IMG/VR virus record: IMGVR_UViG_3300010430_000201
Span: 1-39,012 of that record
Strand: one strand, 5' to 3'
Length of the DNA stretch: 39,012 nucleotides
DNA from: a virus
A model generated the notes under the pieces. That model saw nothing but the letters and a program-made list of their open reading frames with translations, was not told the DNA's origin and made no database searches. The position numbers and the translations under genes are program-made. This document shows, piece after piece, positions 16,224 through 36,856 of this stretch (position 1 is the stretch's first letter; each line of letters opens with the position of its first letter).

Positions 16224-16673
16224 CTATACCTCCATGAGATAACTGCGCTCATGTAAGCGATACCCGCGCTTCACAAGCGAATCTTCTTTAACCGGACTAT
16301 TAGACTCTAACGCCATAATAATCCAGTGTGCGACCTTTTTGCCATAATCATTAAAGCTTTTTAATAATAGAGCACCCGCCCCAGTACCCCTGTATTCTTC
16401 CGGTACCCACCAAAATTGTTCATTCAGTGTTTTAATTTTAGGATTATATGGGTGGTCAATGAGGTAGCCAGATATAAAACCCATTAACTTGCCGTCTCCG
16501 TGTGCCACAAAAACAACATGGTTCTCTATCACGTCACCAACAATCTTTGCGGCGTGTTCTATGTCACCGAACAAAGCATATTTAGAGTCATGGAAATCAG
16601 AAAAATCCTTTAACTGGTCAACAATCCAATCAACATCTGCTCCATCAGCCCGCCTAACCTCAACGCCCACCAT
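16224..16673 (-). CDS. GNAT-type acetyltransferase
   Basis: A 149-residue protein with a GNAT pattern: the N-terminal VRRADGADVDWIVDQL helix, central strands VVFVAHGDGKLMGFISGYL, the WVPEEYRGTGAGALLLKSF acetyl-CoA motif (R-G-x-G-A-G), and a C-terminal LVKRGYRLHERSYL. It would transfer an acetyl group to an unknown substrate. GNAT-like genes at this position, between tail and internal virion genes, occur in other podoviruses. ATG overlaps the preceding gene's stop. Confidence 0.8.
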   Translation of the reverse strand: MVGVEVRRADGADVDWIVDQLKDFSDFHDSKYALFGDIEHAAKIVGDVIENHVVFVAHGDGKLMGFISGYLIDHPYNPKIKTLNEQFWWVPEEYRGTGAGALLLKSFNDYGKKVAHWIIMALESNSPVKEDSLVKRGYRLHERSYLMEV

Positions 16674-17116
16674 TACCTGGTCCTCGCATATCTGTAGTGA
16701 TTTGTTTTGTCTGGCATGTAACCCACCATTAAGCCCTCGTTCTTAAAGCCAAGTTTGTTGGCCCACCGCATACCTTCAGTATAACCCTCACGCACAGTAA
16801 TTTGCATCCTATGCAGGGATAATTCTCTTTCATAGTGTGCAATAACGGAAAGCGTAAGTCTATGGAAACTTATAGGCCTCTCGACGCACTCCTCGCTTGT
16901 TATCGCCCAGCAATCAGCCACCCCCGGCCAATGAACATACAAGCCAAAGATACCGTAAACCTTATTCTCGTCAACAAAACTAACTAGATGGGCATCTTGG
17001 TTGGAGTGCGCCTGCATAACAACCTCAATTAACTCATCCTCAGACATCTCTGAATAGGCGATCTTCTTGTGATTCATTTCACAAACATGTCTGAGCTTAA
17101 AGTGTTCTACCTTCAT
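16673..17116 (-). CDS. GNAT-like protein, acetyl-CoA motif degenerate
   Basis: A 147-residue protein with a GNAT-like outline: FKLRHV start, VSFVDENKVYGIFGLYVH central strands, and ANKLGFKNEGLM end. The usual R-x2-G-x-G/A loop is not clear; VERPISFHRLTLSVI occupies its place. It may be a non-catalytic relative and could act as a virion or tail-assembly protein. It is coupled on both sides (ATGA-type overlaps). Confidence 0.65.
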   Translation of the reverse strand: MKVEHFKLRHVCEMNHKKIAYSEMSEDELIEVVMQAHSNQDAHLVSFVDENKVYGIFGLYVHWPGVADCWAITSEECVERPISFHRLTLSVIAHYERELSLHRMQITVREGYTEGMRWANKLGFKNEGLMVGYMPDKTNHYRYARTR

Positions 17117-24583: not shown

Positions 24584-24780
24584 CGTAAGCCCCCCGGGTC
24601 TACCTGAAAGTCATTTCTAAGTAAGGATTTTTTCTTTTCTTCCATGCGAAGAAGATTAACCATCTCTCTCCTTGGAATCTTAGGACCGTCTGGGTTATTG
24701 GGTTCATCACCAATTTCTTGGCGCATCATCCCCTTGGGTTCCATTGGATTTGGTTTATCTAATTCTATCCGAACGCTCAT
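24580..24780 (-). CDS. Small hypothetical late protein (66 aa)
   Basis: Not recognised. The protein is Pro/Asn/Glu rich with a charged helix (RREMVNLLRMEEKKKSLL) near the end. It overlaps the terminase large subunit stop by four bases (ATGA) and the next gene likewise, so it is co-translated in the packaging block. Confidence 0.6.
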   Translation of the reverse strand: MSVRIELDKPNPMEPKGMMRQEIGDEPNNPDGPKIPRREMVNLLRMEEKKKSLLRNDFQVDPGGLR

Positions 24781-26078
24781 ATGTGACCCCCATACACAGT
24801 ATAGTCTTGACTAGCTTGCCTTGGCAATGAGCGATGGTCAACCTTCTGTTCTTTTACGCCCATAGCAAATGTGCGAAAAGCATCAGCAGCGTGTGAATGA
24901 ATGTCGTGGCGTGGGGTTGCGATGAACATTCCGGCTTGTCGGTCCCACTTCTTCCGGTACGCCTTCATGTGTTCTATCCCCTTAAAGCATTTGGTGCGGT
25001 CAATATAACACTTTGGCAAGAGCATCCTTGTTGCGTGTATGCCATCATCAACATAGTACTTTGGTACTACTTCAACTCGGCCAGAGTTTAAAAGCTTCTG
25101 TAAAGTAACACTCCTCTTCACTCCAGTAGACAAATCTCTGTGGCCACCATCATGTGGAAGCAGGTGAGTGTCGTAATTATAATGAAGAGAGTTTAAATAT
25201 TCAGCGGTCTTAGGAATATCATAGCCCTGCTGCTCCATATAATTAATTACATTCCAGCTTGGCCCACTCTTTTGTATGAACCAAACAATCATCAGGTCAT
25301 CGATTCCTAAATCCCATGCGGTTGTAACCGGAGAATCCTTATGGAATGGAACCTCTCTAATTCTTCCGTCGTTTTCCATGTTGGTCATAATTCTGCCGTA
25401 GTAAGATCCTTTTAATCCTGCATCGAAGGAGCACTCAAACTCTTGTGCGTACTCATCCTCATCCATGATTGCCTTGGCAGAGATAAGCTCATCCTCTTCT
25501 ATGATTCCTGTCTCACTTGCCTTGTACATTTTGGAGTACCAGTTCTTTGCGGTCTTCGCATAAACATAAAGATCATAGAATGTGTTGCGGCCTGCTGGTG
25601 TACCAATAAATACACCCCAACCCTTGCGGTCAGACAGAGCTGGTCGAAGAATCTGTGTCCAGATACGAGGATTCATTTCCGAGTATTCATCGAGAACGGC
25701 CCCGTCAAGATAGATACCACGATGGCTATCAGGATTATCAGCGCCAAAACAAAAAAAGCGAATATTAGTGTCACCAAGCGGTATATCGATACGTAAATCT
25801 TGTTCATTTGATTTCATTCCAGGAATATTTTTAGTGTATTCCTTCATATAATCCCAAGCAATTCTCTTGGCCTGTGAGTACATGGGTGCAACATAAGCAT
25901 ATTGCGGGTTTTTAATCGGGTTGTTGAGTGCCATGTGAATCATGTGGTTGATTGCAAACACGGTCTTGCCGAAGCGCCGATGGCAAACGAGTACATTAAA
26001 GCGTTTCATATTTCTATGAAGCTCTGCTTGTAATTCTCTTGGCGGATAGCCGGTGGATACTTTTTGTGTTTCGCTCAT
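24777..26078 (-). CDS. Terminase large subunit
   Basis: A 433-residue packaging motor. The ATPase has a Walker A variant CHRRFGKT (residues 32-39) and Walker B YLDGAVLDE (about 123-131). The C-terminal RNase H-like nuclease starts at VTTAWDLGIDD with the first catalytic Asp, followed by LLPHDGGHRD and a final DIHSHAADAFR. It cuts concatemeric DNA and pumps it through the portal. Length is typical of short TerL proteins. It is separated from TerS by seven small genes, which is unusual. Confidence 0.95.
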   Translation of the reverse strand: MSETQKVSTGYPPRELQAELHRNMKRFNVLVCHRRFGKTVFAINHMIHMALNNPIKNPQYAYVAPMYSQAKRIAWDYMKEYTKNIPGMKSNEQDLRIDIPLGDTNIRFFCFGADNPDSHRGIYLDGAVLDEYSEMNPRIWTQILRPALSDRKGWGVFIGTPAGRNTFYDLYVYAKTAKNWYSKMYKASETGIIEEDELISAKAIMDEDEYAQEFECSFDAGLKGSYYGRIMTNMENDGRIREVPFHKDSPVTTAWDLGIDDLMIVWFIQKSGPSWNVINYMEQQGYDIPKTAEYLNSLHYNYDTHLLPHDGGHRDLSTGVKRSVTLQKLLNSGRVEVVPKYYVDDGIHATRMLLPKCYIDRTKCFKGIEHMKAYRKKWDRQAGMFIATPRHDIHSHAADAFRTFAMGVKEQKVDHRSLPRQASQDYTVYGGHI

Positions 26079-29993: not shown

Positions 29994-30000
29994 TTGAATC

Positions 30001-30038
30001 GCGGTCTATGTATGGAGCGCAGCGGAATACATAACCGC
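30001..30038. repeat. Long imperfect palindrome / hairpin
   Basis: GCGGT-TATGTAT (30001-30013, one bulged C) is complementary to ATACATA-ACCGC (30027-30038), giving 12 base pairs around a 13-base GC-rich loop. There is no U tract, so it is not a simple terminator. It follows the zinc-ribbon gene by 7 bases. A structured RNA, protein-binding site or origin element are all possible. Confidence 0.55.
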
Positions 30039-30062
30039 AGGCAAGCGAAGCGCGGCAGTACC

Positions 30063-30099
30063 AAATTGTCACTCTAGTACAAAATTGACAATCTAGTTC
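30063..30099. promoter_or_regulatory. Paired 18-bp direct repeats with nested inverted repeat
   Basis: Two 18-bp units (30063-30080 and 30082-30099) share 14 of 18 bases in the pattern AAATTG-CA-TCTAGT-C, 19 bp apart. They also contain ATTGTCA (30065-30071) and its exact reverse complement TGACAAT (30086-30092). Such nesting is typical of operators bound by a dimer. TTGACA at 30085-30090 could be a -35 on the plus strand; TATGAT lies at 30102-30107 but too close to pair with it. Confidence 0.5.
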
Positions 30100-30277
30100 C
30101 ATATGATAGAAGAAGATCGGGATGACCTCGGCGTGGTTAGACACGCGGGACCAACAGTGATGTATCACAGTGGCTAGATTGCTAAATGCTGTTGGCCGAG
30201 CGCACCGTGGCACACCAAAGGGCGCAATCAATTACATACAGATTAGGGCATCCCACCTAATCAAGCGGAGAACATAT

Positions 30278-30361
30278 ATGTTTATGTTGGTTGTATTCTT
30301 TTCATTGGGCATCGTATTTGGGTTTGTCTGTGGGTATCTGGTTGCTTTCTTTATAGAGTAG
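30278..30361 (+). CDS. Single-span membrane peptide (27 aa)
   Basis: Almost the entire peptide is hydrophobic (MFMLVVFFSLGIVFGFVCGY), ending in AFFIE. GGAGA lies 6 bases before ATG 30278, a good ribosome site. An upstream GTG (30170) would add a 36-residue basic leader. An inverted repeat, GATTAGG (30241-30247) and CCTAATC (30256-30262), sits just before the ribosome site. Its role is unknown; small phage membrane peptides often act in exclusion or lysis control. Confidence 0.45.
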   Translation: MFMLVVFFSLGIVFGFVCGYLVAFFIE

Positions 30362-30647
30362 CATTAGGCTCAAGTATCCGAAATCAAAGTGGTTCTTCTG
30401 ACTAGAGAGGTACACACGTAGTATGGGGCGAAGAAAAAATTTGGGGGTAGGGGGTCGCGCGCACGCACACGCACACGAAACAATGTTTACAATAGGGGGA
30501 AAAGGGGTTTCCTTACATTATATACCACGCCTTGTCGGTAGTCCTACCCCTAGGTACATATAGGATATAACCTGCGTCAAAGGATAAGGTATACTACAAC
30601 CGTGATGTTACCCTGCGTGTACGGGACTAGCGGTATTGACCATATGC

Positions 30648-30674
30648 AAAAATTACACGATTGTAAAAATTACA
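30648..30674. repeat. Repeated AAAAATTACA with inverted repeat; candidate operator
   Basis: AAAAATTACA is present at 30648-30657 and 30665-30674, 17 bp apart. The second copy is part of the palindrome TGTAA-AAA-TTACA (30662-30674). Further TTACA words occur at about 30486, 30513 and 30735 in the same gap, suggesting several sites for one regulator. Confidence 0.45.
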
Positions 30675-30703
30675 GTATCAATTTGACACCACCGCAAGAA
30701 TCG

Positions 30704-30764
30704 TGCCAAGTGCAAATTCAATAATTTCAAGTACTTACAAGTTGGCACACAAAATGCATATAGA
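30704..30764 (+). promoter_or_regulatory. Candidate early promoter with flanking inverted repeat and sigma-54-like element
   Basis: TTACAA (30735-30740) and TATAGA (30759-30764) are 18 bases apart, a plausible sigma-70 promoter about 70 bases before the first gene of the rightward unit. The same stretch contains TGGCAC-N6-TGCA (30743-30758), which keeps the GG and GC spacing of sigma-54 promoters. TTGGCAC (30742-30748) is also the exact inverse of GTGCCAA (30704-30710), so the sigma-54 match may be just part of an operator. Confidence 0.45.
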
Positions 30765-30834
30765 AAAATCCCGCTTGAGTAGCTGCCCACAGCTCAGGCA
30801 TTAGGGTAACCATGGGCATAGAGAGAACAACACC

Positions 30835-31131
30835 ATGAGCAACGACAATATCGTAGAACTAAAACCCAACGTAAGCCCTGAAGTCCAAGCCGAGCTTGAA
30901 AAGCTACGGTCTGAGAACTACCGCCTAAAGACTAAGGGACAGGGCCAGCGAATAGGGGAAACCCATATGAGCTTGAAGGTAAGTCAGAAGGGGGCATGTA
31001 GTCTATACGGCATAGGCCGCTTTCCCGCAACCCTGTACAAGGAACAATGGGTAGCCATACTGGACAATGAGCAGGAGATCAGGCAGTTTCTTGCGGACCA
31101 CGATGCCGAACTAAAATCCAAGAAGGCATAA
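30835..31131 (+). CDS. Conserved phage early protein (98 aa)
   Basis: An N-terminal coiled coil (VQAELEKLRSENYRLKTK) is followed by a conserved-looking block, SLKVSQKGACSLYG then RFPATLYKEQWVAIL, which I recognise as common in small proteins of proteobacterial phages and prophages (KVSEKGA-S-YGL-RFPVTLY-QW). The function is not established. It is the first gene of the rightward unit. Its product may be structural to nucleic-acid transactions, but nothing proves it. Confidence 0.65.
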   Translation: MSNDNIVELKPNVSPEVQAELEKLRSENYRLKTKGQGQRIGETHMSLKVSQKGACSLYGIGRFPATLYKEQWVAILDNEQEIRQFLADHDAELKSKKA

Positions 31132-31133
31132 CC

Positions 31134-31265
31134 ATGAACCGGAACGCTGAGATATTAGCCCTGCTCGACGAGTGGGGCACGTTCCTTGAGGAACTAGAAC
31201 AAGCCGTGGACCATGGCTTTAAGTGTACCTGTGCAGATTGCGAGGATTTCCGTGAGACGGCATAG
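31134..31265 (+). CDS. Small cysteine-containing protein (43 aa)
   Basis: A short gene two bases after the previous stop. The product begins MNRNAEILALLDEW and ends FKCTCADCEDFRETA, with three Cys in seven residues. It is acidic and could bind a metal. It has no strong ribosome site of its own but may be coupled to the upstream gene. A terminator-like hairpin follows 16 bases downstream. Confidence 0.5.
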   Translation: MNRNAEILALLDEWGTFLEELEQAVDHGFKCTCADCEDFRETA

Positions 31266-31281
31266 GCGTAGTGATAACCTG

Positions 31282-31301
31282 AGGAGCCCTAAGCGGCTCC
31301 T
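31282..31301 (+). terminator. Hairpin, candidate terminator or attenuator
   Basis: AGGAGCC (31282-31288), a six-base loop, and GGCTCCT (31295-31301), followed by TAATT. The stem is strong but the U tract is weak, so partial termination after the first two early genes is likely rather than a full stop. Confidence 0.5.
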
Positions 31302-31308
31302 TAATTCC

Positions 31309-31325
31309 ACGGCATACTATACCGT
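31309..31325 (+). promoter_or_regulatory. Near-perfect palindrome with promoter-like TACTATACC
   Basis: The 17-bp sequence ACGGCATACTATACCGT is palindromic at all but one base pair besides its centre. It contains TACTATACC, which also occurs at 2311-2319 ahead of another gene start. It may be an operator over a promoter that restarts transcription after the upstream hairpin. Confidence 0.4.
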
Positions 31326-31388
31326 CGTGTTCGTGTGCCTGTTTATTGTGTCCTATGCCATGGTATTGGTCATGGAATTGGTGGGCCT

Positions 31389-31625
31389 ATGACCACGCAG
31401 GTATATGAATCAGGTCACGCTATGACCGTGGCCGTACGCATGAGCCGTGTCCGTCTAGCCAGTAGGATATACTATATGGACATAGCTGAGATAACCAACA
31501 GACTACAGTGTCCACCACATAGTGCCGAGGGATTGCGTGACGAGTGGGTTAAATTCCTTGACGAGTATCGTGGTCCACTGACTAGCCTTGAACATTGCCA
31601 AGAACTATTCCAACTAACGGAATAA
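31389..31625 (+). CDS. Hypothetical early protein (about 78 aa)
   Basis: Not recognised. The C-terminal 49 residues (from MDIAEITNRL) look like a soluble helical protein with two Cys. The start is uncertain: ATG 31389 gives 78 residues, GTG 31335 gives 96, and ATG 31476 gives 49 with AGGAT 7 bases upstream. The last choice has the best ribosome site. Confidence 0.45.
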   Translation: MTTQVYESGHAMTVAVRMSRVRLASRIYYMDIAEITNRLQCPPHSAEGLRDEWVKFLDEYRGPLTSLEHCQELFQLTE

Positions 31626-31828
31626 CTTGAACATTAACTCAGGCACATACCATATAGTGTGTGTCTGTGTGAGTGAGTAAGTATGTATGTGTATGGGATG
31701 CGCATAAACCTTGGATTAATCCCCCTCTGTTTATGTGTTCTTGTATATGGAGTGACCCTATTGGCGACACCTTTATTGTACTCCACTTACATGCGCTCAC
31801 TCAACTTCAGTATAGAAAGGACATCCAC

Positions 31829-32035
31829 ATGTTTAAAGATATGAGCACAGAAGAATTTCTTAAGTGGCACTACGAGTGGACCATGAGCTTTGCATACCCA
31901 GTAAAGATAGACGGTGTTGAACCACCACCATTAGGCAGCGGGCTGGGCTGGTCAGCAAAGGATAAAGAATTAATAGATTCCATTAAGGAAACAACAAAGC
32001 GTAAACAACAACCAAAGGAGAAAGACAATGAGTAA
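31829..32035 (+). CDS. Small protein at head of ubiquitin-like cassette (68 aa)
   Basis: ATG 31829 follows AGAAAGGA by 7 bases, much better than the GTG/ATG-type starts of the longer frame. The product is soluble: an N-terminal aromatic helix (TEEFLKWHYEWTMSFAY), a Pro/Gly middle (GVEPPPLGSGLGWS) and a lysine-rich tail (TTKRKQQPKEKDNE). No family is recognised. Its end overlaps the ubiquitin-like gene by 8 bases, so it is probably co-translated with the cassette and might be a substrate, adaptor or regulator. The 200-base gap before it is TG-rich and has no gene. Confidence 0.6.
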   Translation: MFKDMSTEEFLKWHYEWTMSFAYPVKIDGVEPPPLGSGLGWSAKDKELIDSIKETTKRKQQPKEKDNE

Positions 32036-32228
32036 AGCAAGCGTAAAAGTACAGGTAATCGGTGGTCAAGCACAAGATTTACAAGCCAATAATGTTGGTG
32101 AAGTAAAGAGTGCAATGAATGCTGGTAACTATACTGCTTCTGTTAATGGTCAACCACAAGACGACGGTTATCAGTTGCGTGAAGGTGACTTCATTACATT
32201 GGGACTAGCCACTAAAGGTGGACGATAG
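32028..32228 (+). CDS. Ubiquitin-like beta-grasp modifier ending in Gly-Gly-Arg
   Basis: A 66-residue protein. An N-terminal strand (SVKVQVIGG), a second strand, a short helix (NNVGEVKSAMNAG), a YTASVNGQPQ strand and LREGDFITLG match the ThiS/MoaD/ubiquitin beta-grasp order, including the VNG and GD turns. The last residues are ATKGGR: a diglycine followed by one Arg, so a peptidase would have to remove Arg before adenylation of Gly. AAAGGAGA precedes the ATG. It heads a four-gene cassette with E2, JAB and E1 partners, which strongly supports a modifier role. The C-terminal TKG resembles PRTRC protein C. A sulfur carrier is the alternative but would not need an E2. Confidence 0.8.
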   Translation: MSKASVKVQVIGGQAQDLQANNVGEVKSAMNAGNYTASVNGQPQDDGYQLREGDFITLGLATKGGR

Positions 32229-33720
32229 TAATAACTCTGACCAGGGGAGTACAAGTGACTCCCTTGGTTCTACTTTAAGTAGACTGTTTCGTGAAACATA
32301 CGGACCAGGTGTACGTGCGATTGCAGAGGGACGTGCGGGCAGGGGCAGGATAACAGCAACAGATATAATAGCAAGTGGCACGAGGCCCTTACCTATTAGA
32401 CTTGGTGATGAAGTATGGCGTAACGCATTTGAAAGGCCATCACCCACAATAACAGTTACTGCCTCTAACTTTGATGCACTAAGAGGCATAAGCGTACAGG
32501 GTGTAGTGCTCGACGATCATGATGATCTTATTAGATACAATAAACTACCACAACAACAACAAAGAAAGGACAACAACATGAGTGTAGCTGAAGCATTAAA
32601 GGTCAAGCAGCACATTGATTACTTCCAGCTAACTAATAGCTGGGATAATTTATACGACGACAAAAAAATAACAGCAAAGAAACATGGTGAGCTATTGGAT
32701 ACAGCCCAGTACTTTAGGGATGTAGCACTAGCAGTACAATTAGGCTGGGATAAGATAGACATGACCCCCTTTATAATTGAATCAAAGGGCGGCCACATAA
32801 TTAACACAGATAGAGTAGCACTTAACAAGCTGATATTTGCAGCAGCTAACGGCAAGCAAGAGGACATTGACAGTAAGGTAATACTTAAGGAAGCAATTAA
32901 GATTAACTTCAGTCGCGTGGTTCAAGGGCTACAGGAAGACAAGAACAGGCAGCTTGCATATGCCTATGAAAAGTATTCAGGATACATGGAGTATTTAAGC
33001 AAGGCACTAAGGAAGCAGCTAACAATAGATAAGATAAGAGGCAAGGACTTAGACATTGGCCAACAGATAAAAGATATAGTTAGCTCGGGTAACTATGAGT
33101 TCGTTAGGTATGCACCAGGCAGCAACACAATTATATTTGTAACCAAGCCAGTGTATAATTCTTACGTCGTACCTGAACACCAGATTAATCACAACAACCT
33201 ACCGCTTGGTAGATACGCTGTGTTCTTAAGGATAGACTGTGCTGAACTTAAGGTATACCCATATGAGGATAACTTAAGCGTCGGCAGCTACTTCCACCCA
33301 CACGTAAGTGATACTGGCTATGTTTGTTGGGGTAACGTAAGCGATAGAGCAACAGAGACACACGCAAACTATCAGCTTGTTGAGCTTATGTATCTATTGA
33401 ATGAGGTACTTAATAACTACAACCACGACAACCCATATGCACAGCTCTATCGTTTCCAGAAGCCAGATGAAAATGCAGTACAGCCCAGCTTCTATCGACA
33501 CTACTGTGGTAACTGTGAGGATGAGTACATATATGTAGAGTATGAGACTTATGACTGGGATTGTGGAAACTGTGATGCTAATAACGATACAGTAGGAGAG
33601 TACGCACCCACATATACAAGTGGCAGAGAGACATACATAATAACTAACCCACAAAGCTACTGGCCTATACCATTGGTAGTAAGTGAAGAAACAATAAAGA
33701 AGAAAGGACAAGATAAATGA
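32218..33720 (+). CDS. E2-like ubiquitin-conjugating protein with C-terminal zinc ribbon
   Basis: Up to 500 residues. The E2-like core is about residues 290-400. A strand-rich part (NTIIFVTKPVYNSYV, RYAVFLRIDCAELKVYPY) leads to FHPHVSDTGYVCWG, where HPH is at 360-362 and Cys370 is the predicted thioester site; this mirrors HPN-x-G-x-(I/V)-C of E2 enzymes and Prok-E2 families. The C-terminus has CGNC (430-433) and CGNC (449-452), a zinc ribbon that might bind substrate or act in an E3-like way. Residues 1-120 are an unrecognised Ser/Gly-rich extension. GTG 32218 lies inside the diglycine codons of the previous gene; ATG 32578 behind AGAAAGGA gives a 380-residue form that keeps the E2 and ribbon. 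The 3' end overlaps the JAB gene (ATGA). Confidence 0.78.
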   Translation: MDDSNNSDQGSTSDSLGSTLSRLFRETYGPGVRAIAEGRAGRGRITATDIIASGTRPLPIRLGDEVWRNAFERPSPTITVTASNFDALRGISVQGVVLDDHDDLIRYNKLPQQQQRKDNNMSVAEALKVKQHIDYFQLTNSWDNLYDDKKITAKKHGELLDTAQYFRDVALAVQLGWDKIDMTPFIIESKGGHIINTDRVALNKLIFAAANGKQEDIDSKVILKEAIKINFSRVVQGLQEDKNRQLAYAYEKYSGYMEYLSKALRKQLTIDKIRGKDLDIGQQIKDIVSSGNYEFVRYAPGSNTIIFVTKPVYNSYVVPEHQINHNNLPLGRYAVFLRIDCAELKVYPYEDNLSVGSYFHPHVSDTGYVCWGNVSDRATETHANYQLVELMYLLNEVLNNYNHDNPYAQLYRFQKPDENAVQPSFYRHYCGNCEDEYIYVEYETYDWDCGNCDANNDTVGEYAPTYTSGRETYIITNPQSYWPIPLVVSEETIKKKGQDK

Positions 33721-34553
33721 GCGAGGTAATACTAAGACGTAATGTGTTTAATAAAATTATGCACATGATTGACAAGGCTAAGAAGGATGAGGTAAGTGGC
33801 TTCGGCATGTGTACCTATGAGGATGGAGCGTTCACTGTTAATGAAGCAATCATGATTAAGCAAGAGGAACAAACATCAGCAAGCACAACGATGGATGCAC
33901 AAGCAGCAGCTAATGCCATGTTTGAACTAAAGGATTATGGTGACTACCTTTGGTGGTGGCACACGCATCCTAACATGGGTGTGTTCTGGTCAAGCACAGA
34001 CACAACAGCTATCAACGAGCTAAGTGAGCACGGTGTAGTAGTGGCTACTGTATTCAATGAGAAACAGGAAATGAAATCAGCAGTACAACAAGGCAAGCCC
34101 TTCGGTGTTGCTGACCTAGATATACCTACCTTTATTGAGAATGAATACATCGACGAGGCAACCCTTAAGGCATGGGATAAAGAGTACGAAGATAACAAAG
34201 CGATACCTAAACCATTGGTACCAAACACACCAGCTAGGTGGGACGAATGGTATGATGATGAAGATTATTATTACAGCAACTATGGTATGTACGGCGGTAA
34301 GAATTATATCGGTGGTGCTGGCGGTACTGTTACTGAGATAAAGAAAAAGGAAAAGGCAAAGGACAGTACAATTAAAGAGATACTTGAACAGCTTGGCTTC
34401 GATAAGAAAATCAAACCAAACAAGGCACAACAGAAAGAGATACGCAGGCTGGCACCAGCATGGGCAGCGCTGCTTGAGTCAGAGAGAACAGATGCACTAT
34501 GTAACATATGGAACAACACAGACTGGGACACTAGGATAGGGGGCGTATACTAA
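33717..34553 (+). CDS. JAB/JAMM metallo-isopeptidase (deubiquitinase-like)
   Basis: A 278-residue protein. The N-terminal 130 residues form a JAB/MPN domain with every JAMM ligand: Glu25 (DEVSGFG), His82 and His84 (WWHTHP), Ser92 and Asp95 (SSTD), in the H-x-H-x7-S-x2-D spacing. It would hydrolyse the peptide after diglycine, either maturing the modifier (removing its final Arg) or removing it from targets. Residues about 160-220 are acidic/aromatic and Gly/Tyr-rich. The C-terminal 60 residues form a charged helical domain (ILEQLGFDKKIKPNKAQQKE). It overlaps both neighbours (ATGA, TAATG), so it is made with the E2 and E1. Confidence 0.93.
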   Translation: MSEVILRRNVFNKIMHMIDKAKKDEVSGFGMCTYEDGAFTVNEAIMIKQEEQTSASTTMDAQAAANAMFELKDYGDYLWWWHTHPNMGVFWSSTDTTAINELSEHGVVVATVFNEKQEMKSAVQQGKPFGVADLDIPTFIENEYIDEATLKAWDKEYEDNKAIPKPLVPNTPARWDEWYDDEDYYYSNYGMYGGKNYIGGAGGTVTEIKKKEKAKDSTIKEILEQLGFDKKIKPNKAQQKEIRRLAPAWAALLESERTDALCNIWNNTDWDTRIGGVY

Positions 34554-35251
34554 TGGAACACTTAACAAGACAAGCAGATTTAATACCAAGCAGCGCACTA
34601 ACTAAACAAATTAATATCATTGGTGCTGGTGCAGTAGGCTCATGGCTTACGCTTGCGCTAGCTAAGATGGGGTTCAGTAACCTTACTGTCTTTGATGACG
34701 ATGACATCGAGGTAGAGAACATGAACTGCCAGTGTTATTCTTTCAACGACATTGGTAAGAAGAAAGTAACAGCATTAAAGGAGAGAGTACATGAACTTAC
34801 TGGAACAAATATCAACGCAGTTGTATCACGTTATGAAGGCGACCGTGCCATGGCTGGCATTGTTGTTTCTGCTGTTGATTCTATGGCTAGCCGTCGGCAG
34901 GCATGGGAGATACATGCTAAGTATGGCACTCAAACCAATCTATTCATCGACCCTCGCATGGGTGCGGAAGAAGCTCTATGCTATGCGTATCAACCGATGA
35001 AGCCAGATCACGTCAAGCAATACGAAGCAACACTATACTCTGATGATGATGCAGTACATGAGCCATGCACACGCAAGGCCACCATGTATACAGCACTCAT
35101 GTTGAGTGGGTTGGTGGCACAGATCATCAAAGAATTTTTAACGAACAAAGGAAATCACTTGCAAGTTTCCAACTGGTCGATTAAGAATGGAGCGTTCGTA
35201 GGATTTACAGAGGAAAAAGTTTTAAGTTTAAGTAAAGAACGCACTCAGTAG
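34553..35251 (+). CDS. E1-like / ThiF-family activating enzyme
   Basis: A 232-residue protein with a Rossmann nucleotide-binding start (IIGAGAVGSWL, residues 22-32). The adenylation motif follows: VFDDDDIEVENMNCQ (46-60) with Asp, Glu and Asn, a conserved Lys cluster near 70, and SAVDSMASRR (106-115). HEPCTRK places a likely catalytic or structural Cys at 172, ahead of a helix (YTALMLSGLVAQII). It would adenylate the modifier's terminal Gly and pass it to the E2. It is short, like ThiF/MoeB and PRTRC ThiF enzymes, and lacks a separate ubiquitin-fold domain. It is the last gene of the coupled cassette. Confidence 0.93.
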   Translation: MEHLTRQADLIPSSALTKQINIIGAGAVGSWLTLALAKMGFSNLTVFDDDDIEVENMNCQCYSFNDIGKKKVTALKERVHELTGTNINAVVSRYEGDRAMAGIVVSAVDSMASRRQAWEIHAKYGTQTNLFIDPRMGAEEALCYAYQPMKPDHVKQYEATLYSDDDAVHEPCTRKATMYTALMLSGLVAQIIKEFLTNKGNHLQVSNWSIKNGAFVGFTEEKVLSLSKERTQ

Positions 35252-35316
35252 TTTGGTTGTTCTTTCGATTGTAAGCGTACCTAGCAGGGGTGGCGTGGTA
35301 ACCGCTCATCTTTATC

Positions 35317-35340
35317 GGGGCATAGGCTAGGCTATGCTCC
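35317..35340 (+). other. Stable hairpin after the E1 gene
   Basis: GGGGCATAG (35317-35325) and CTATGCTCC (35332-35340) form nine base pairs, one of them G-U, around a six-base loop. GGTGG at 35290-35294 and CCACC at 35339-35343 could enclose it. No U tract follows, and AAGGAGA and the next ATG come 8 bases later. It may be an RNA processing or stability element that separates the cassette from the membrane-protein gene. Confidence 0.5.
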
Positions 35341-35359
35341 ACCTATTAAGGAGAGACAT

Positions 35360-35734
35360 ATGGATATAAGTAAAGAGTTAGCTAAAGAATTATTAACTAC
35401 AATTAAGGGAGCAAAGGAAGCAGCGGGCGCAGTGAAAGACTTTACACTTGAGCAAGCACCGGATGTAGTGCACCAGCTACTAACATATAACTTGGCTGTT
35501 GCATTGGTGTGGGCCTTGTTTGGTGCCACACTTATTGGGATAGCCATTAAGTTAATAATAGTTTCAATAAATTCAGATGATAGTGATGTGAGTTTCTTTG
35601 CATTTATTGGCATGGTTGTTACTGGAATGCCAGGTACTGCATGTTTTATTACCAATATAGCAACAGCACTTAAGGTTTGGTTAGCGCCCAAGCTATACCT
35701 ATTAGAATATTTTACTAAGATTGTGGGGAACTAA
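35360..35734 (+). CDS. Membrane protein, holin-like motif
   Basis: A 124-residue protein. An amphipathic helical N-terminus (KELAKELLTTIKGAKEAAG) is followed by two or three hydrophobic segments (about 43-68, 79-100) and a WLAPKLYLLEYF end. I associate this last motif with phage membrane proteins annotated as putative holins. It has a strong AAGGAGA site. Its place in the early unit, far from the late lysis cluster, argues against it being the main holin. Membrane tethering of DNA or an exclusion function are other options. Confidence 0.6.
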   Translation: MDISKELAKELLTTIKGAKEAAGAVKDFTLEQAPDVVHQLLTYNLAVALVWALFGATLIGIAIKLIIVSINSDDSDVSFFAFIGMVVTGMPGTACFITNIATALKVWLAPKLYLLEYFTKIVGN

Positions 35735-35943
35735 TGAGCAACATAAAGAATGCAATGCCTGAACCAACAGGTGATAGGCCCTTCATGCCTACACCACAGG
35801 ATCTACAACAACAGATAGACGAGTTGTCTTTCCGTATAGCAGACATGGAACACAACGTAACTAAGACAACAGCTATGCTTGAAAATTTAATTCAGTTAAT
35901 GGGGAAGGTAGTAGTAAACAATGAGAATAGAGAGCAACAGTAG
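35734..35943 (+). CDS. Small coiled-coil protein (69 aa)
   Basis: Pro-rich start (MPEPTGDRPFMPTPQDL) then a coiled coil (QQIDELSFRIADMEHNVTKT) to the end. It is coupled to the membrane protein by TAATG and overlaps the exonuclease gene by 23 bases. It could partner the membrane protein. No family is recognised. Confidence 0.6.
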   Translation: MSNIKNAMPEPTGDRPFMPTPQDLQQQIDELSFRIADMEHNVTKTTAMLENLIQLMGKVVVNNENREQQ

Positions 35944-36856
35944 TATTAACACGGCACTAGAGTGCCCAAAGAAATACCAGTTTAAATATATACACAAGGT
36001 CGAGTCACCCGTGTATCCGCACGCCGCTGCCTATGGCACGTTCGTGCATTACTTTAAGGAGTGTGAACACAAGGGGGTGGACCCAGATAGAACAGCTATC
36101 TTCCGTGAGTATATCGACAAGTACCCTGAGTATGAGGACGACATTCAATGGGACATATGGCTGGCCGAGAAGGTAAGCTACCAACACAAGAGGTTCTGGG
36201 ATAACGTCGATGGTACAATAGGTAGCCCATCCAATGATGTGCTTGAGTTCAAGGATGTCGAGGGTGAGTGGGGATTTAACATCGACCACGAACACAAACA
36301 AGTTGGTAAGCGTGACGGTTATGTATACCATAAGGACATAGAGAAGTTCTTTCTTTACGAGCTAAAGACTAGCGGCACCACCAACCGTGAGGCATACAAG
36401 CACAAGCTAGAGAATGATTCACAGATAGACGTGAACATCCTCGCAATACAAGAGGACAAGCAGCCAGTGAGTGGTGTGTTCTATGATATAATCTGGAAGC
36501 CAGCGATAAGAATAAAGACTGGTCGAAAGAAACTACCCGATGAAACACGGGATGAATTCTATAACCGTATCGTCGATACATATGCCAGTGAGCCACGCAA
36601 ATACTTTGAAAGATTGCCAGTGTTAAGAACACAAGCAGCACTAATACATGGGTACACTGACCTATCACAGAAGTTTAAGTTAATGGATGCAATGAGTGAG
36701 CATGGATACCCACGCAACACAGGTGCATGTCTTAACTTTAATAAGCTGTGTACTTTCTTTGATGTATGTACTCAGCCTGACTCACCAGATTTATTAAAGC
36801 AGTACAACAGGCGGCATAAGAAACTGCCGGAGATAACAGAGGAGGGACAGCAATGA
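35921..36856 (+). CDS. PD-(D/E)XK exonuclease with Fe-S cluster (RecB/Cas4-type)
   Basis: A 311-residue protein. The N-terminal ALECPKKYQFKYI holds Cys15, then GTFVHYF. The nuclease core is at about 120-175, where GKRDGYVYH gives the Asp and FLYELKTSG gives the E-x-K, followed by a QID-x-N-I-LAIQ motif. Three C-terminal Cys (270, 277, 283) with Cys15 make the four-Cys iron-sulfur clasp of Cas4/AddB nucleases. It would resect DNA ends for the recombination system encoded downstream (Sak4-like ATPase and SSB-like protein). Confidence 0.88.
   Translation: MRIESNSSINTALECPKKYQFKYIHKVESPVYPHAAAYGTFVHYFKECEHKGVDPDRTAIFREYIDKYPEYEDDIQWDIWLAEKVSYQHKRFWDNVDGTIGSPSNDVLEFKDVEGEWGFNIDHEHKQVGKRDGYVYHKDIEKFFLYELKTSGTTNREAYKHKLENDSQIDVNILAIQEDKQPVSGVFYDIIWKPAIRIKTGRKKLPDETRDEFYNRIVDTYASEPRKYFERLPVLRTQAALIHGYTDLSQKFKLMDAMSEHGYPRNTGACLNFNKLCTFFDVCTQPDSPDLLKQYNRRHKKLPEITEEGQQ

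Follow-up and report, generated by a model that had tools for sequence, protein, structure and literature searches.

A phage gene cassette for a ubiquitin-like modifier ending in Gly-Gly-Arg, and its probable maturation by the JAMM protease of the same cassette

The Modifier Gene and Its Cassette

The window analysed here is the whole of a 39-kb virus record (39,012 nucleotides), and since its terminase (24777 to 26078, minus strand) shares approximately 45% identity with terminases from the HTVC010P group of Pelagibacter phages, the phage is regarded as a distant relative of this marine group. The window carries four adjacent genes in the order ubiquitin-like modifier (Ubl), E2, JAMM protease and E1, and the features of the locus are as follows:

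32014 to 32020, plus strand: ribosome-binding site AAAGGAG of the modifier gene (read directly from the sequence)
32028 to 32228, plus strand: Ubl of 66 aa with a beta-grasp fold, ending in ATKGGR (sequence, alignment, model, fold and profile matches)
32214 to 32228, plus strand: C-terminal Lys-Gly-Gly-Arg-stop (sequence), with cleavage predicted between 32222 and 32223, past Gly65
32226 to 32234, plus strand: triple in-frame stop TAG TAA TAA (sequence)
32218 to 32577, plus strand: open stretch in the E2 frame upstream of the likely E2 ATG, whose first start, GTG 32218, overlaps the GGR codons (sequence)
32578 to 33720, plus strand: E2 (UBC-like) enzyme of 380 aa from ATG 32578, with a ribosome-binding site at 32563 to 32570 and the motif HPH...GYVC, Cys250 being encoded at 33325 to 33327 (motif, fold)
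33717 to 34553, plus strand: JAMM/JAB metalloprotease of 278 aa with E25, H82xH84, S92 and D95 (Pfam, motif, profile)
34553 to 35251, plus strand: E1/ThiF-like activating enzyme of 232 aa with GxGxxG and Cys172 in C-T-x-K (Pfam, alignment)

The modifier reading frame starts at ATG 32028, 3' of the AAAGGAG site, and its last codons, AAA GGT GGA CGA TAG, lie in frame with the 66-aa product (...LGLATKGGR-stop), just as an earlier note on this DNA had read them. Because three in-frame stops follow each other in tandem, read-through is unlikely and Arg66 is taken as the true C-terminus. A tblastn search with the Ubl against phage records gave zero matches even at E 1. The 66-aa frame is a real gene, given same-family proteins of up to 45% identity, a beta-grasp model and a profile match to SAMP2. 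The AlphaFold model, based on an alignment of 36 homologues, has a mean pLDDT of 87.5 and beta-beta-alpha-beta order, with residues 61 to 66 flexible, and it matches TtuB (Z 8.6, 59 aligned residues, rmsd 1.6) and SAMP2 in complex with Pyrococcus JAMM1 (Z 8.6, 54 aligned, rmsd 2.3), as well as the solved structures of MoaD, NEDD8, ubiquitin and Caldiarchaeum ubiquitin. The family profile matches archaeal SAMP2 with E=6e-9, in an alignment that reaches the terminal Gly-Gly of SAMP2, and also MoaD and ThiS. The window modifier, which has both the beta-grasp fold and a C-terminal Gly-Gly, is a ubiquitin-like protein.

Among the four cassette genes, Pfam recognises only JAMM and E1. The E1 scores 81.1 bits with the ThiF model (cut-off 28.1), its profile matches UBA5, ThiF and UBA6, and its cysteine is invariant as C-[TNSGA]-x-[KR] in 87 of 87 E1 proteins among the relatives listed, as befits an activating enzyme. 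The JAMM gene, located two genes downstream of the modifier as previously noted, encodes a member of the JAB group by both Prok-JAB (28.1 bits, cut-off 25) and JAB (26.5 bits, cut-off 22.5). The scan of the window E2 gave no Pfam match, and its assignment as a UBC-fold enzyme with an HPN-like motif and a cysteine is based on VIA-align and the conserved motif: H240-P-H...C250 fits the classical HPN...C and is invariant or near-invariant in close relatives, and the matches listed for the core of the model (residues 153 to 305) are E2 enzymes (best Z 8.8, 122 aligned, rmsd 3.9), while Foldseek gave a weak match (E 0.19).

The open stretch at 32218 to 32577 comprises 120 codons with no ATG inside, no homologue of it was found, and it could be an N-terminal extension of E2 or be reached by a +1 frameshift from the modifier. 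A single Ubl-E2 precursor, joined by read-through or by such a frameshift, is not supported, as the modifier ends in three tandem stops, the linking stretch is without a homologue, and in several close homologues E2 starts at about the place that corresponds to ATG 32578, a start preceded by a ribosome-binding site of its own.

Rfam and tRNA searches found no feature, and promoter-like sites were no more numerous than in shuffles. Elsewhere in the window, approximately 840 bases (29994 to 30834) that separate the structural genes, read leftward, from the rightward genes hold only ORFs of up to 88 aa and a low-complexity gcgcgcacgcacacgcacacg stretch near 30457 to 30478, with no Rfam or tRNA match in this interval. 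Two adjoining short genes within the structural block (16224 to 17116, minus strand) have, by eye, the look of GNAT-type acetyltransferases.

The Gly-Gly End and the Tails Across the Family

Homologues were collected from viral contigs by alignment searches, using the best 80 of 295 JAMM relatives and the best 80 of 359 E1 relatives, and a genome scan added two relatives; as single queries in viral contigs, the window E2 or E1 found nothing, whereas the JAMM and E1 alignments did find relatives. From the phage contigs among the relatives listed, Ubl C-termini were counted over 64 clusters at 80% identity, with three tail ends set by eye (GGKTI in L143, GGR in L109 and GGI in L022). A C-terminal Gly-Gly is present in 61/64 clusters and KAG in the other three (L091, L093, L095), in a set whose first seed was partly gathered with a Gly-Gly filter and which was then widened by profile similarity without that filter. 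A tail of 1 to 22 residues follows in 48/64 clusters and 16 stop exactly at the glycine, with lengths of 0 in 16, 1 in 20, 2 in 9, 3 in 6 and 4 to 22 in 13 clusters. The conserved Gly-Gly with a short tail, for which the earlier note had suggested an alignment of homologues, is hence borne out. Beyond the Gly-Gly no sequence conservation is seen: the first residue can be K, R, C, N, D, L, Q, I, V, A, S, W, M, G or H, and Pro and Glu are absent from this position among the 48 tailed clusters, a number too small for inference.

In a control of 1,238 other short genes at the same loci, a Gly-Gly lies at most one residue from the end in 1.1% and at most three residues from it in 1.8%, and a Gly-Gly occurs within the last 24 residues (the last one being no more than 22 residues from the end) in 86 out of 89 distinct Ubls vs 8% of other genes. 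Random stop placement would give a mean tail of approximately 17 residues and the observed tails are short; their shortness is what is constrained. Homologues lacking the diglycine, which would have spoken against a maturation step, are confined to the edges of the family, namely the three KAG homologues, the crAss-like Ubls (K-S-G-A/T/K) and one distant gut element without a glycine end. The KAG modifiers, one of which has an extra Ala, retain JAMM.

In the clade of the window, which has 23 Ubls, tails of 1 to 2 residues are found in 17, no tail in 3 and tails of 11 to 22 residues in 3, and six of the 20 members with a tail have Arg directly after the Gly-Gly. The exact K-G-G-R-stop end is seen again in L092 (JAMM identity 43%), AGGR-stop is found in L109, L029 ends in KVGG-stop, the tails of L097 (the longest, with 22 residues), L107 and L168 begin with GGR, and the Ubl of Flavobacterium phage FpV4 has GGR-GDG. 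Since the Gly-Gly is kept in nearly all clusters, tails vary and KGGR-stop recurs in L092, a Gly-Gly plus a dispensable tail is considered a family trait.

The earlier note had seen an in-built on/off step in the Arg cap. On this view, conjugation would be started by regulated JAMM trimming, a function for which the Arg cap would have been selected; the frequent short tails and the recurrent Arg in the clade of the window favor this idea, and because short tails outnumber none 17 to 3 there, the tail may have some clade-specific value. Against it, the 16 tail-less clusters keep JAMM, tail presence changes approximately 12 times on the E1 tree by parsimony, at least five of these on well-supported (starred) branches, and tail sequence is unconserved. 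Moreover, the family-wide ratio of 16:20:9 for tails of 0, 1 and 2 residues reveals no preference for a tail and is near the roughly equal split expected from a random stop within two codons of the Gly-Gly. The evidence therefore speaks against a dedicated on/off switch, which we regard as unlikely. That the tail is so labile would also suit the notion that the Arg owes its presence to chance placement of the stop codon, with a protein that acts non-covalently and enzymes that are relics, but catalytic motifs that are intact across very diverged phages make this extremely improbable.

The JAMM Protease and Probable Trimming of the Tail

Tailed or tail-less, 112 of 112 loci with a Ubl call among the relatives listed have a JAMM with an intact HxH(7)SxxD motif. 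The single JAMM-less cassette lineage that was found belongs to Xanthomonas/Erwinia jumbo phages, whose Ubl ends in ...KASGG-stop; no Prok-JAB match exists in the whole 228-kb jumbo-phage genome, in a search that was positive in 11 of 14 control genomes, and no further relatives of the jumbo-phage E1 were found in viral contigs. Four other loci without JAMM are contig ends. As only this one JAMM-less lineage is available, the correlation of tail and JAMM depends on a single contrast, and a rule that tails occur only where JAMM is present was not adopted. Xanthomonas phage PhiXhv-12 (L002; 2736 to 3158 and 3238 to 5916) encodes an 892-aa E2-like protein, an E1 and a Ubl ending exactly in Gly-Gly.

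Among solved structures, the JAMM profile gives its best match with Rpn11 of Caldiarchaeum (CsRpn11; E=1.8e-11), followed by eukaryotic Rpn11. CsRpn11 cuts the precursor of the Caldiarchaeum modifier, CsUb, exactly after the Gly-Gly and cleaves conjugates too; it is sensitive to residues past the cut, as Cys79Glu blocked cleavage, and with respect to the glycines it tolerates Gly78Ala, the second one, and is slower with Gly77Ala (PMC6043591). The KAG homologues alter the first glycine, which corresponds to the position where CsRpn11 worked more slowly and not to the tolerated second one. BilC, lambda gpK and Mec+, described below, are further precedents in favor of trimming by JAMM, as is the match of the Ubl profile to SAMP2, of which a crystal structure with Pyrococcus JAMM1 exists.

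Judging from known E1 chemistry, the E1 would be unable to adenylate the modifier before Arg removal, and the analysis favors JAMM trimming ahead of E1 activation as the best reading, the residue past the Gly-Gly being most likely removed by the JAMM of the cassette itself. The maturation that the earlier note had proposed is thus strengthened by the Ubl identity, the kept Gly-Gly, the usual short and variable tail and an Rpn11-type JAMM with an intact motif, while its on/off step is not. Since JAMM is also kept where the Ubl has no tail, its constant job is probably deconjugation. JAMM could even be purely a deconjugating isopeptidase, with the Arg removed by a host carboxypeptidase or kept because the E1 tolerates it, and its retention in tail-less lineages agrees with this insofar as the conserved function cannot be trimming alone. 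However, tails of up to 22 residues exceed what a basic carboxypeptidase would neatly trim to Gly-Gly, the nearest solved JAMM relative performs both reactions and the JAMM-less lineage has a tail-less Ubl, so that we hold an exclusively deconjugating JAMM to be fairly unlikely.

Mec+ is another JAMM protein. It hydrolyses the CysO-cysteine adduct, thereby removing a single cysteine (PMC3227635), which could hint at a sulfur-carrier pathway, with the Ubl as a ThiS/SAMP/CysO-like sulfur donor, JAMM freeing adducts and no protein being modified. TtuB and MoaD among the best folds and the profile matches to SAMP2, MoaD and ThiS point in the same direction. Yet the cassettes contain a UBC-fold E2 with HPx...Cys, which sets them apart from the sulfur-carrier class, no rhodanese, cysteine desulfurase or cofactor gene is present among the nine window genes scanned, and the neighboring genes are replication genes, hence a sulfur carrier appears very unlikely.

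Comparison With Known Systems

JAMM maturation of a Gly-Gly-tailed modifier is already known in archaea and has been reported for Bil. In the Caldiarchaeum subterraneum operon (CsUb/CsRpn11/E1/E2), the CsUb precursor has nine residues past the Gly-Gly (PMC6043591, PMC5654768), and like the phage cassette this system combines a Gly-Gly-plus-tail precursor with an Rpn11-type JAMM, CsRpn11 being the best solved match noted above. In contrast to the phage, Caldiarchaeum is a cellular archaeon with a small-RING E3, and no RING gene was recognised in the phage cassette, whose Ubl profile by sequence matches SAMP2 and not CsUb.

The anti-phage operon BilABCD has the same four activities, Ubl-E2-JAMM-E1, and BilC was reported to expose the C-terminal glycine of BilA; BilA, as described, has two Ubl domains (PMC11354881), whereas a single 66-aa Ubl is found here. 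BilD is large, with inactive and active adenylation domains and a Cys domain, while the phage E1 has 232 aa, and the phage cassette is carried by the phage itself, beside replication genes. No conserved E or H is present after Cys250 at the spacings of the BilB-type CEHH motif, and with the single small Ubl, the small E1 and the missing CEHH motif an assignment to BilABCD was rejected.

Another related arrangement is operon type 6d, which we take to be PRTRC-like. In type 6d, as in the phage, genes for a stand-alone terminal-glycine Ubl, an E2-like, a JAB and an E1-like protein adjoin (Iyer et al., 2006; PMC1779556), and the phage E2 differs in that a classical HPx precedes the Cys. Type 6d was listed for bacteria and not for phages in the 2006 survey (PMC1779556). 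The window cassette was not accepted as PRTRC, since its E1 reaches 53.8 bits vs a PRTRC_ThiF cut-off of 144.75 and no other PRTRC model matches among the nine genes scanned, nor as CBASS type II (Cap2/Cap3), since E1 and E2 are separate genes and no CD-NTase is found among these nine genes (30835 to 36856).

A phage Ubl together with a phage JAMM is also found in the lambda tail assembly pair, where gpK reportedly cuts gpI so as to release its Ubl domain (conference report, PMC12908700). Unlike the window, this pair belongs to a tail module without E1/E2 and its Ubl is the N-terminal domain of a structural protein, and the window cassette was not classified with it. Homologous Ubl-E2-JAMM-E1 order is seen in the "metalloprotease + ThiF" genes of crAss-like phages, which differ in their K-S-G core end and are annotated only as thiamine biosynthesis, metalloprotease or hypothetical. 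Searches of open-access papers did not reveal a complete phage-encoded Ubl-E2-JAMM-E1 cassette, which is weak as evidence.

Spread and Genomic Neighborhood

On contigs of sufficient length, the order Ubl-E2-JAMM-E1 is the rule, and by E1 similarity the same kind of cassette is present in crAss-like, Flavobacterium FpV-type and Xanthomonas/Erwinia jumbo phages. The diverged crAss-like version (L003, L004, L008, L170 to L173) lies between primase upstream and uracil-DNA glycosylase plus exonuclease downstream, and its Ubl core end K-S-G is followed by 2 (KSGKF-stop in cr106_1) to approximately 150 residues. One relative from the genome scan, L168 (1719 to 4887), is a cassette on an 8-kb contig that was assigned to a Lokiarchaeota MAG; it may come from an archaeal virus or from a phage binned there in error. 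In a gut phage-like element (L006; 2185 to 5675), the 78-aa Ubl-like ORF has neither Gly-Gly nor a terminal glycine; it is accompanied by an ORF of 491 aa in the place of E2, a JAMM-like gene and an E1, after which a reverse-transcriptase-like gene follows by eye.

In approximately 27 related cassettes, the genes downstream of E1 frequently code for DNA primases, DnaB-like helicases, Sak4 and Erf annealing proteins, and in the window a PD-(D/E)XK exonuclease follows E1. Replication or recombination proteins are a reasonable guess for the targets of the modifier, with a parallel in eukaryotes, where SUMO and ubiquitin modify PCNA.

Proposed Pathway and Its Meaning

Sequences and structural models show that the cassette comprises the four protein types with intact catalytic motifs, a conserved Gly-Gly and a variable tail, and we consider it probable that the phage encodes a complete ubiquitin-like conjugation pathway of the following kind. 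The modifier would be made in precursor form, with Arg66 as the one residue past the Gly-Gly, and JAMM would take off this residue by cutting after Gly65. The ThiF-type E1 would then adenylate Gly65, hold the modifier as a thioester on Cys172 and hand it to Cys250 of E2, which would join it to lysines of target proteins, from which the same JAMM would later strip it. According to our proposal, JAMM is kept in tail-less lineages for its deconjugation job rather than for trimming, and the tail would be a tolerated, drifting extension instead of a regulatory switch. Constant deconjugation with incidental trimming explains the retention of JAMM, the turnover and sequence of the tails and the tail-length data. 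Several observations weigh against the pathway as a whole: taking off a single residue that bears a free carboxylate is not the same as cleavage within a chain, CsRpn11 is sensitive past the cut, the JAMM-less lineage is a single one, three homologues end in KAG and crAss-like Ubls have a single Gly, and L006 combines a JAMM-like gene and E1 with a Ubl-like ORF without Gly-Gly.

More tentatively, complete Ubl conjugation systems of this type, with a JAMM that both matures and deconjugates, might be widespread in tailed phages (podovirus-like, crAss-like, Flavobacterium and jumbo phages) as a module for the reversible modification of DNA replication and recombination proteins of the phage or its host; we see this as a possibility of rather low probability. 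To our knowledge, bacterial ubiquitin-like conjugation has so far been known mainly as anti-phage defence, while here phages of several unrelated groups carry the whole pathway, with E1, E2 and JAMM intact across great divergence. The natural variation of the tail (0 to 22 residues; GGR or bare Gly-Gly) offers ready matched pairs for studying how JAMM matures the modifier and whether maturation and recycling are done by the same enzyme, and it provides a testable route to the proteins that phages tag. The wider cassette, which is shared by several phage groups and lies beside replication and recombination genes, is more interesting than the tail.
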